A stretch of 64,000 nt of DNA from NCBI RefSeq assembly GCF_029892605.1, contig NZ_JARXWF010000008.1:64001-128000 (forward strand), written 5' to 3'. Within the stretch, counting starts at the first letter, position 1; each line of letters starts with the position of its first letter. The stretch comes from Parabacteroides sp. PM6-13 (GTDB taxonomy: Bacteria > Bacteroidota > Bacteroidia > Bacteroidales > Tannerellaceae). The translations under genes were made by a program, and so were the position numbers. Below are positions 55,311 to 58,895 of the stretch, one piece after another. The notes below the pieces were generated by a model. The model did no database searches. It was given only the letters and a program-made list of their open reading frames with translations, and was not told where the DNA came from.

Positions 55311-55363
55311 AAGAGAAGAAGAAAAAGCCTTCCCAATTTGTGTGGAATCACAATAATAATGTG

Positions 55364-55371
55364 TACCTTTG
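55364..55371 (+). promoter_or_regulatory. -7 box for the carB leader transcript
   Basis: TACCTTTG matches TAnnTTTG; TTTG at 55337-55340 is near the -33 position. Transcription would start near 55375, before the leader ORF and 219 nt ahead of carB. Confidence 0.7.
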
Positions 55372-55392
55372 CCGAAATTTGAAAAAGAGTAA

Positions 55393-55512
55393 ATGAAATA
55401 TACGTGGCAAACGGATGACCCATATCATTTCTCCGATCATACATCGGAACATACTGCTCTTTTTTCTTTTTGTCGGAAGGAGAGATATCTGATTCTTTCA
55501 GGGCTGCGTTAG
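55393..55512 (+). CDS. Putative 39-residue leader peptide of carB
   Basis: This ORF starts with ATG about 18 nt after the predicted transcript start and ends with TAG inside the 5' arm of the terminator at 55505-55529. It has no signal peptide or family match. Arginine codons are at positions 28 (CGG), 31 (AGA) and 39 (CGT, the last). A perfect 6-bp hairpin (TCCGAT with ATCGGA, 55432-55448) precedes a U-rich tract (55458-55471, 12 of 14 bases T), about 34 nt before the terminator. The layout is that of the E. coli pyrBI leader, where UTP shortage pauses polymerase in the U tract so that a ribosome catches up and blocks the terminator. Function here is inferred. Confidence 0.55.
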   Translation: MKYTWQTDDPYHFSDHTSEHTALFSFCRKERYLILSGLR

Positions 55513-55537
55513 TTTTTCTATCTAACGCATTTTTTTT
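55505..55537 (+). terminator. Intrinsic terminator/attenuator upstream of carB
   Basis: A perfect 8-bp stem TGCGTTAG (55505-55512) with CTAACGCA (55522-55529), a 9-nt loop and eight T (55530-55537). The leader ORF stop lies in the 5' arm. The carB ATG is 56 nt beyond it, and no other -7 box is seen in between, so carB transcription probably depends on read-through. Confidence 0.85.
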
Positions 55538-55593
55538 GTCCGCCAACGACGACAGGGATAGAGGTTAACAATCTTACAAAAACAGAATATATT

Positions 55594-58500
55594 ATGTCGA
55601 AAAGTGGTATTAAAAAAGTGATCGTTCTGGGCTCCGGCGCCTTGAAGATCGGGCAAGCAGGAGAGTTTGACTATTCGGGTTCGCAGGCGTTGAAGGCCTT
55701 GCGCGAAGAAGGCATCTATACCGTGCTTATCAATCCAAACATCGCAACGATCCAAACATCGGAGGGGGTAGCCGACCAGGTCTATTTTCTGCCGATTACT
55801 CCCTATTTTGTGGAGGAGGTGATCAAGAAAGAGCGTCCCGACGGTATCCTATTGGCCTTTGGTGGGCAGACGGCGTTGAACTGCGGAACAGAAATGTACA
55901 CCAGCGGCACCTTGGAGAAGTATGGCGTGAAGGTGTTGGGTACCTCGGTGGAGGCGATCATGAACACAGAAGACCGCGACCTGTTTGTTAAGAAATTAGA
56001 TCAGAAAGATATAAAAACACCGATCAGCCAGGCGGTGGAAACCATTGCCGATGCGAAAGCAGCCGCCCTCAAAATCGGTTATCCGGTGATGATCCGTTCG
56101 GCCTATGCCCTGGGAGGTATGGGAAGCGGTATCTGCCAGAACGAAGAGGAGATGGTAGCTTTGGCGGAGAGCGCCTTTGCTTACGCGCCGCAAATCCTGG
56201 TGGAAGAGTCGTTGAAAGGCTGGAAAGAGATCGAGTTTGAGGTGATCCGCGACAAGAACGACCATTGTTTCACGGTAGTAAATATGGAGAATGTAGACCC
56301 GCTGGGTGTACATACCGGAGAGAGCATCGTGGTAGCGCCTACCTGTTCGTTGACCGACGAGGAGATAAAGAACCTACAGGAATTGTCTATCAAAGCCATC
56401 CGTCACCTGGAGATTGTCGGAGAATGTAATATCCAATATGCTTATAGTTCGGAAACGGGCGATTACCGCGTGATCGAGGTGAATGCCCGCCTGAGCCGAT
56501 CGTCGGCCTTAGCCTCCAAGGCAAGCGGTTATCCGTTGGCTTTTGTGGCAGCTAAATTGGCTTTGGGCTACGGACTGGATGAGATAGGCGAGATGGGAAC
56601 GCCCAACTCGGCTTATAAAGCGCCGGAAGTAGATTATATCATCGTGAAGATCCCGCGTTGGGACCTGACCAAATTCGTAGGCGTTAGCCGCCAGATCGGT
56701 TCCAGCATGAAGTCGGTTGGCGAGATTATGTCGATCGGTAAGAGCTTTGAAGAGATCATCCAGAAGGGATTGCGTATGATCGGGCAGGGGATGCACGGCT
56801 TTGTCGGCAACAACGACCTGGAATTCGACAACCTGGACGAAGAGCTGGCCAACCCGACCGACCTGCGTATCTTCGCCGTTGCCAAAGCCTTGGAAGCGGG
56901 ATATACGATCGATCGCATTTATGAACTGACAAAAATCAACCACTGGTTCCTGCGGAAACTGAAGAACATTGTGGATTATACCGCTGTACTGGGTGGATAC
57001 AATAAGATTGAAGAGCTGCCGGAAGATATCCTGCGCGAAGCGAAACGCCTGGGATTCTCTGACTTCCAGATTGCCCGTTACGTGGAAGATCCGGAAGGGA
57101 ATATGGAAAAAGAAAACATCCGCGTGCGCAACCAACGCAAACGCCTGGGCGTTCTGCCGAGCGTAAAACGGATCAATACCATCGCCTCCGACAACCCCGA
57201 ATTGACCAACTACCTCTACCTGACGTACGATGGCAGCGAACATGATATTCCCTATTATAAGAATGAAAAGAGCGTGATTATCCTGGGCTCGGGCGCTTAC
57301 CGCATCGGATCGTCGGTTGAATTCGACTGGTGTTCGGTGAACGCGGCACAAACGGCTCGCAAGCTGGGGTATAAGTCTATCATGGTCAACTACAACCCGG
57401 AGACGGTTTCTACCGACTACGACATGTGCGACCGCCTCTATTTCGATGAACTTTCTTACGAGCGTGTACTCGACGTGATCGACCTGGAAACCCCCAAAGG
57501 GGTTATCGTTTCGGTGGGGGGGCAGATCCCGAACAACCTGGCGATGAAACTACACCGTCAGCAGGTGCCTATCCTGGGAACCTCTCCGCTCTCTATCGAC
57601 CGGGCAGAAAACCGTCACAAGTTCTCCGGCATGCTCGACACGCTGGGTATCGACCAACCGCGTTGGGCTGAGGTGGTGAGCATGGATGAGATCGATTCGT
57701 TTATCAACGAGGTGGGCTTCCCCATCCTGATCCGTCCGTCGTATGTGCTTTCGGGAGCGGCGATGAATGTCTGCTACAGCAAGGAGCAAATGATTGAATT
57801 CCTTGGCTTGGCTGCCAAAGTATCGAAAGAATATCCGGTCGTTGTGTCGGAATTCCTGCAGGGAGCGAAAGAGATTGAGTTCGATGCCGTCGCGATGAAT
57901 GGCGAAGTGGTAGAATATGCCATCTCCGAACATATCGAGTTTGCCGGTGTACATTCCGGTGACGCTACGCTTGTTTTCCCGGCACAAAAGATCTACTTCG
58001 AAACAGCGCGCCGCGTGAAGAAGATCGCTAAAACGATTGCGAAAGAATTAAATATCAGTGGTCCGTTCAATATCCAGTTCCTGGCAAAGAACAACGATGT
58101 GAAGGTGATCGAATGTAACCTCCGTGCTTCACGTAGCTTCCCGTTCGTATCGAAAGTATTGAAACGTAACTTTATTGAAACGGCTACCCGCATCATGCTC
58201 GATGCCCCCTATAGCCGCCCCGACAAGAGCGCCTTCGATATCGACTGGATCGGTGTGAAAGCCTCTCAGTTCTCGTTTGCCCGCCTACACAAGGCAGACC
58301 CGGTATTGGGAGTAGACATGAGCTCAACCGGTGAGGTAGGCTGCCTGGGCGACGACTTCGATGAAGCATTGCTCTCCGCTATGCTTTCGGTTGGCAATGC
58401 CATCCCTAAGAAGAATATCCTGGTCTCTTCCGGAGAGGCAAAAAGCAAGGTAGACCTGTTGGAACCCTGCCGCATCCTGGCCGATAAGGGATACACGATC

Positions 58501-58812
58501 TACGGCACGCATGGCACGGCGCGTTTCCTCAACGAGAACGGCATTCCGTCGCAGGAGGTAAGCTGGCCGGACGAACAGGGCGAAAACAACATCATGGAGA
58601 TGTTCTCAGAACATATCTTCGAACTGGTGGTGAATATCCCGAAAGACCATAGCAAACGCGAATTGACCAATGGGTATAAGATCCGCCGTGCCGCGATCGA
58701 CCACAATATCCCATTGATCACCAACGCCCGCCTGGCAAGCGCCTTTATCCAGGCCTTCTGCAATCTGGAAGAATCGGATATCCAGATCAAGAGCTGGCAG
58801 GAATATAAGTAA
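55594..58812 (+). CDS. carB: Carbamoyl-phosphate synthase large subunit (eukaryote-like CarB)
   Basis: CarB makes carbamoyl phosphate for pyrimidine and arginine synthesis, with the CarA glutaminase. The 1072 residues have two ATP-grasp halves and a C-terminal MGS-like regulatory domain ([26 protein letters not shown]). The sequence resembles animal CPS I/CAD more than E. coli CarB: [27 protein letters not shown] and [23 protein letters not shown] (E. coli has [20 protein letters not shown] as I recall). carA is not adjacent. A terminator-containing leader precedes it and a strong terminator follows at 58842-58895. Confidence 0.96.
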   Translation: [1072 protein letters not shown]

Positions 58813-58841: not shown

Positions 58842-58895
58842 AGGGACACAGGGTTTTATGTTAATATATATAAAACTCTGTGTCCCTGTTTTTTA
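58842..58895 (+). terminator. Intrinsic terminator of carB
   Basis: An 18-bp stem (AGGGACACAGGGTTTTAT, 58842-58859, with its partner 58870-58887; one G-U pair), a 10-nt AT loop, and a T-rich tail (TTTTTTA). Confidence 0.88.

Follow-up and report, generated by a model that had tools for sequence, protein, structure and literature searches.

The carB locus and its upstream region

The window analyzed here is a stretch of 64,000 nucleotides from Parabacteroides sp. PM6-13 (contig NZ_JARXWF010000008.1, positions 64,001 to 128,000). It carries carB (55594-58812), which codes for the large subunit of carbamoyl-phosphate synthase (1072 aa; TIGR01369, 1419.7 bits). The first-pass annotation had called this gene eukaryote-like, which could not be upheld: its product is a large subunit on its own and belongs to the family usual in bacteria (TIGR01369). 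A terminator-like site is found downstream of carB (58842-58887). All features upstream of carB which are described below are, like carB itself, on the forward strand.

The sequence TTTG at 55337-55340 is a candidate -33 element, according to the consensus. It is followed by the -7 box TACCTTTG (55364-55371; Bacteroidota TAnnTTTG). Applying the -12 to -5 rule from Flavobacterium psychrophilum (PMC9723704, available to us in part), the transcription start was set 5 nt past the box, so that the predicted first transcribed bases are AATTTG (55376-55381). A leader ORF of 39 codons (55393-55512) begins with an ATG at 55393. Its translation is MKYTWQTDDPYHFSDHTSEHTALFSFCRKERYLILSGLR, with Arg at codons 28, 31, and 39, and its TAG stop codon (55510-55512) lies within the 5' arm of an intrinsic terminator (55505-55537; 8-bp stem, 9-nt loop, 8 U). 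The arms of the latter, TGCGTTAG and CTAACGCA, span 55505-55529 and are followed by eight T up to 55537. Within the ORF, the sequence reads as a small hairpin (55432-55448; TCCGAT-CATAC-ATCGGA, 6 bp with a 5-nt loop) and a U-rich tract (TCTTTTTTCTTTTT, 55458-55471; 12 T among 14 bases). The box, ORF, hairpin, U-rich tract, and terminator had been listed in the first-pass annotation, and all were confirmed base for base. An intrinsic terminator is thus located between the promoter and the pyrimidine gene carB. No Rfam family reached its gathering score in the window, which is not what would be expected for a known riboswitch or T-box.

The genome carries a second carB (G000:C3:204797 region, L139), which forms a single open frame with carA (1462 aa). 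This frame, as well as those at L140 and L141, apparently codes for a fused carbamoyl-phosphate synthase. In contrast, carA ends before carB at L142-L144.

Conservation upstream of carB

A total of 110 carB loci were taken, the same genome being sometimes represented twice. The gene start could be placed in 108 of these, the exceptions being L029 and L030 (paralogue). A leader was scored when a -7 box was located 118-146 nt upstream of a strong terminator, which itself had to be 20-110 nt upstream of carB. This applied to 46 of the 108 placed regions, representing 41 distinct leaders in which the distance from the -7 box to the terminator stem is 123-143 nt. Among the matches listed, named records with a leader are from Parabacteroides, Tannerellaceae, Bacteroides, Coprobacter, Paludibacteraceae, and other Bacteroidales, and leaders are missing in the three Massilibacteroides records and in the Prevotella records. 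The nearest named record among these matches is Parabacteroides sp. PFB2-10 (L031), whose CarB is 99% identical over the first 335 residues. That many relatives lack such a leader (it is present in 46 of the 108 placed regions) counts against the interpretation as a UTP-responsive attenuator which is developed below.

Alignment of upstream regions from other Bacteroidales, which the first-pass annotation had proposed as a check, revealed that the ORF phase, the positions of the hairpin and of the U-rich tract, and the terminator are all conserved. As judged from these alignments, the combination of -7 box, short ORF, small hairpin, U-rich tract, and terminator is a conserved element upstream of orthologous carB. 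Because the leaders are related by descent, the conservation counts do not represent independent events. Set A1 comprises 37 of the 41 distinct leaders (without L086, L002, L097, and L071). Set A3 omits L048 and L102, and set A4 omits L006, L010, L019, and L025, which have another loop length or register; L004 is present twice in it and was counted once.

In L064, L107, and L108 (Bacteroides, Phocaeicola), inspection by eye showed a short carB leader whose ORF is tiny. The box, the T run at the start, and the terminator are kept, and there is no evident hairpin or U-rich tract, which again counts against a UTP-responsive attenuator. From their sequences, these look like reduced forms. In L023, L024, and L047, the terminator is retained, the box is altered or nearer (L024), and no uORF starting with ATG is seen by eye; we refer to these as decaying or rebuilt leaders. 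In the Tannerellaceae loci L004, L014, L020, L022, L032, and L039, a ATTCTATAAAATCA stretch occurs shortly upstream of the carB ATG. It persists in the leaderless L020, L022, and L032 and has diverged in the window.

Two search strategies were rejected. In a covariance model intended to cover the whole leader (R1), RNAalifold retained only the terminator. With strict filters, R1 has matches in 21 of 295 genomes from the order, among which L118-L132, to the extent that they were read, are leaders of carB and L138 is one of pyrC, whereas the matches L133-L137 are weak and not upstream of carB. A pattern search of the strain's own genome with the box and AAATTTTG, allowing one mismatch, gave seven matches compared to two in a reversed control and was uninformative; contig C8 had none of them, as the start in the window deviates by more than one mismatch.

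The leader ORF

In 40 of the 41 distinct carB leaders, a uORF of at least 25 codons reaches the terminator, compared to an expectation of 6.2 of 41 for dinucleotide-shuffled sequences and of 12.7 with retention of the first ATG. Only L086 deviates, its short ORF beginning at a later ATG. The uORFs have 30-60 codons and start 9-25 nt past the predicted transcription start. The stop is located between -16 and +10 nt relative to the start of the stem in 35 of the 40 leaders, and the remaining five extend further into or through the terminator. Of all 40 uORFs, in contrast, 37 have stops in frame +1 and 38 in frame +2.

The 12 Parabacteroides-like uORFs (33-34 codons) show 1014, 989, and 939 changes at the three codon positions without any in-frame stop, and synonymous changes are no more common than in the wrong frames. 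The even distribution over the codon positions, together with the open frame, indicates that being translated matters and that the peptide does not. Among the Bacteroides-like uORFs (seven sequences), the third codon position varies more (117/131/194) and changes in frame 0 are milder. By these sequence comparisons, the open frame is kept everywhere and the peptide only in part of the tree. The carB leader is very probably translated, even though translation itself has not been demonstrated.

The small hairpin and the U-rich tract

Hairpin, U density, and antiterminator pairing were evaluated for 40 leaders (without L086). The best small hairpin ends 48-57 nt ahead of the terminator stem in 25 of these, and the 12-nt window which is richest in U begins 5-12 nt past the hairpin in 32. 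In the 16 distinct Parabacteroides-like leaders, the hairpin pairs form in 94.8% of the cells, compared to no more than 51% in slid versions, and in the 11 Bacteroides-like leaders they form in 87.5%; sliding by 1-3 columns results in at most 56% over both sets. Covariation is modest: three cells are changed on both sides in the Bacteroides-like set (up to two in slid versions) and none in the Parabacteroides-like set. Taken singly, the hairpins are weak, with p ≤ 0.05 for only 11 of the 40 leaders, which we count, together with the modest covariation, against a UTP-responsive attenuator.

The U density within 10-nt windows does not exceed that of shuffled sequences for carB (7.55 vs. 6.87, mean P 0.45, single leaders not being above their shuffles), for pyrB (7.38 vs. 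7.07), or for pyrC (6.20 vs. 6.02). There is thus no exceptional U tract for leaders of this type, a further point against UTP as the signal. The position of the U peak was compared to that in rotated sequences for 33 of the 41 carB leaders (without L086 and seven near-identical rows) and for 11 of the 14 pyrB leaders (without L261, L265, and L271); pyrC leaders were not included. The peak is found about 30-45 nt ahead of the stem in the Parabacteroides-like (19), Bacteroides-like (11), and pyrB (11) sets, and in each of these sets none of 1000 rotations reached it. For the three remaining carB leaders alone, 360 of 1000 rotations did so, which is not significant. It is the position of the U-rich tract, rather than its density or the energy of single hairpins, which separated leaders from shuffles.

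The predicted transcription start

A purine followed by TTT occurs near the predicted, unmapped start in 34 of the 41 carB leaders compared to 20 of 140 other promoters; for a strict form of this T run, the numbers are 31 of 41 and 8 of 140. An AATTT start is also present in the placed pyrC leaders from genus g122, and no such T run was seen by eye in the pyrB leaders. UTP-dependent slippage has been described for E. coli pyrBI and carAB P1 (PMC6245113, consulted in excerpt). The carAB P1 promoter likewise serves a carbamoyl-phosphate synthase gene and has an early T run (GUUUGC there, AAUUUG as predicted here). At carAB P1, control is at initiation (PMC6245113, same excerpt); slippage is only inferred in the present case. 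It is possible that the AAUUUG start also permits UTP-dependent slippage at initiation; this is a weaker inference, and the start is itself inferred.

The same architecture upstream of pyrB and pyrC

The architecture was searched for upstream of other genes. An initial scan of 475 distinct upstream regions returned 47 of 102 carB regions and only 3 of 373 others, two of which belong to pyrC. In a later scan of 843 regions (genes for at least 200 aa), 48 of 101 carB regions matched. For pyrC, the architecture is present in 11 of 11 genomes from genera g122 and g216 of family f107, one of these leaders (L223) having been placed only in the later scan; none was found at the other 19 pyrC loci taken from this family, of which one was unplaced in the first placement. 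For pyrB, it is present at 14 of 30 loci from family f20, L194 and L253 being counted only when a relaxed box ending in A is accepted. Terminators and peptides differ among the carB, pyrB, and pyrC leaders.

Re-labeling by eye of the 13 matches filed under "other" genes assigned five to pyrC, four to pyrB, and three to the first gene of an arginine operon, leaving L132, which is tryptophanyl-tRNA-synthetase-like and doubtful. About 4 of 649 regions from other genes thus match, the number being approximate because labels were assigned automatically and then revised by eye. None of 90 purM upstream regions shows the architecture, nor does any of the 26 pyrE regions which could be placed (30 fetched). 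An extra pyrC match from the genus of the window (L169), with an ORF of 17 codons ending 19 nt ahead of the stem, may be due to chance. Within the genome of the strain itself, no leader precedes pyrB, pyrC, or pyrE and R1 matches only carB, which speaks against a UTP-responsive attenuator. Overall, the layout, its conservation, and its use on carB, pyrB, and pyrC are features which can be read directly from the DNA, and the shared architecture on pyrB and pyrC points to pyrimidines.

Leaders with Arg-Arg precede an arginine-operon first gene in family f20 (an acetyltransferase with MNV[EK]I..ANSS, near argG). At nine of nine loci examined (L276, L277, L278, L279, L280, L285, L290, L291, and L292), this gene is preceded by a short ORF in which Arg-Arg is found close to the end, with LVRRCF in four cases (example: MKVIFSHTHFRKATDLVRRCF). 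The ORFs had been selected by script for Arg-Arg, which does not explain the likeness of the nine ends. The scan found a terminator just past the Arg-Arg ORF in L277, L278, and L285. Judged by these sequences, the arginine-operon leaders are likely to be an arginine attenuator in Bacteroidales.

Comparison with known attenuators

In E. coli, pyrimidine synthesis is known to be controlled by attenuation with ribosome coupling. Transcripts of E. coli pyrBI begin at AATTTG, and the pyrBI leader pyrL (L274) shares with the carB leader AATTTG past the promoter, a hairpin followed by a T run, an ORF which runs into the terminator (44 codons in pyrL, 39 in the carB leader), and a downstream gene from the UMP pathway. 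The distance from the first base of AATTTG to the ORF start is 17 nt here (from the predicted start) and 18 nt in pyrL; that from the hairpin to the T run is 11 nt (T6) and 10 nt (TTTTTCTTCCC), and that from the hairpin to the terminator stem is 56 nt and 38 nt, respectively. Unlike pyrL, the carB leader has a Bacteroidota promoter, precedes carB, and has no clear Shine-Dalgarno sequence by eye, and its stop codon is inside the terminator stem rather than beyond it. No sequence likeness is seen by eye, no alignment having been made. Ribosomes of Bacteroidota make little use of Shine-Dalgarno sequences. In E. coli rph-pyrE, a translated ORF stops near the terminator and UTP is the signal. An ORF stopping close to the terminator and, on our reading, UTP as the signal are common to rph-pyrE and the carB leader, but the ORF is a real enzyme gene in the former and a dedicated short leader in the latter.

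In pyrL, abundant UTP results in termination, whereas scarce UTP results in pausing, so that the ribosome blocks the terminator (PMC10135430; coupling is also described in PMC5021804; both available to us in part). According to the accessible part of PMC9291695, pausing at pyrL in vitro is insensitive to NusA, and compensatory changes in the hairpin fail to restore it. On this partial basis, the role of the hairpin is open even in pyrL, and we count this result against the corresponding interpretation of the carB leader.

The first-pass annotation knew of no such leader in Bacteroidota. This statement holds for pyrimidine leaders within the literature searched, but leader-peptide attenuation of amino-acid operons has been reported for F. 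psychrophilum (PMC9723704, in the part seen). The Flavobacterium attenuators likewise involve leader peptides in Bacteroidota but control amino-acid operons instead (PMC9723704, same part). In B. thetaiotaomicron, long 5' UTRs contain short ORFs "reminiscent of leader peptides" (PMC7366714, excerpt). Among the papers listed in searches of the open-licence literature, none is on a pyrimidine attenuator in Bacteroidota, which does not prove its absence; the text of PMC2965389 contains neither "Bacteroid-" nor "carB".

Interpretation of the carB leader

We consider it likely (probability of about 0.8) that the carB leader is a translation-coupled, UTP-sensing attenuator of the pyrBI type which sets carB expression; this assessment is based on sequence alone, without expression data. 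The first-pass annotation had arrived at the same reading, and it is supported by the conserved layout and by the pyrB and pyrC leaders with their shared architecture, although a response to UTP is itself an inference. Transcription would begin just past the -7 box, and a ribosome would begin translating the leader ORF, whose ATG is about 17 nt from the transcription start. With plentiful UTP, the polymerase would cross the U-rich tract with the ribosome lagging; the terminator would then fold, and transcription would stop before carB. When UTP is low, the polymerase would be held up in the U-rich tract once past the small hairpin, and the ribosome would advance to the stop codon in the stem. 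The stem could not fold, and carB would be transcribed. The transcription start, translation of the ORF, pausing, UTP as the signal, and read-through are each inferred.

An alternative, which the first-pass annotation had kept in reserve, is an arginine-sensing leader-peptide attenuator, in which a shortage of charged tRNA-Arg would stall ribosomes at Arg codons, so that carB is read. CarB supplies arginine too, the uORF in the window has Arg codons at 28, 31, and 39, and Arg-Arg leaders of arginine operons do exist in Bacteroidales. Nevertheless, we give this explanation hardly any credence. Conserved Arg codons would be expected, and 8 of 40 carB uORFs contain no Arg at all whereas Arg-Arg is present in all nine arginine-operon leaders; moreover, where uORFs end in MR or LR, this last Arg is encoded by terminator sequence, namely the conserved TGCGT. 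No antiterminator was detected, the score for pairing with the 5' arm of the terminator being 12.3 compared to 13.3 for shuffled sequences (0 of 40 leaders at p ≤ 0.05). By the same result, an attenuator with alternative structures of the trp/his type was rejected, as none of the 40 leaders was above its shuffles. Finally, the architecture is shared by pyrB and pyrC, two genes that function solely in the synthesis of UMP and are not used in that of arginine. The missing Arg pattern, the missing antiterminator, and the pyrB and pyrC leaders together favor pyrimidines over arginine.

Improbable in our view, if less so than arginine sensing, is a general sensor of translation, where a falling supply of ribosomes would uncouple the leader and shut off carB, with no special part for the U-rich tract or UTP. 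The Parabacteroides-like uORFs, with an unconserved peptide in a frame which is kept open, would fit this, as would a U density not exceeding that of shuffles; it would leave unaccounted for that the position of the U peak is conserved in three sets and that matches concentrate on genes of the UMP pathway, with none among the 90 purM regions. The leader might also be a stable small RNA or code for a small protein with a function of its own, the terminator being simply its end and read-through into carB being constant. A complete small transcript would indeed result from box, ORF, and terminator, a 5' UTR-derived RNA has been validated in B. thetaiotaomicron (PMC7366714, excerpt), and the more variable third codon positions suggest that the peptide may matter in the Bacteroides-like set. 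The Parabacteroides-like set shows no sign of peptide conservation, though, and the carB, pyrB, and pyrC leaders have position and pathway in common while their sequences differ, so that we regard this explanation as very improbable.

Returning to the UTP-sensing attenuator, its logic is that of pyrBI, and its origin is apparently independent, an inference drawn from the different sequence and the different phylum. A more far-reaching scenario is that Bacteroidales have independently and repeatedly (carB, pyrB, pyrC) evolved both layers of pyrBI control, namely a translated UTP attenuator and an AAUUU start which slips at high UTP (carB and some pyrC), without a repressor. We put this forward as a tentative proposal which may well not hold.

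Significance

If our reading of the carB leader is correct, the same logic, written in other sequence, acts on three genes of the UMP pathway, and polymerase and ribosome would be closely coupled in Bacteroidales too. Abundant gut bacteria would then possess, in this leader, a natural and easily scored reporter both of the coupling and of their UTP pool, for which the Arg-Arg leaders of the arginine operons offer a matched comparison within the same order.
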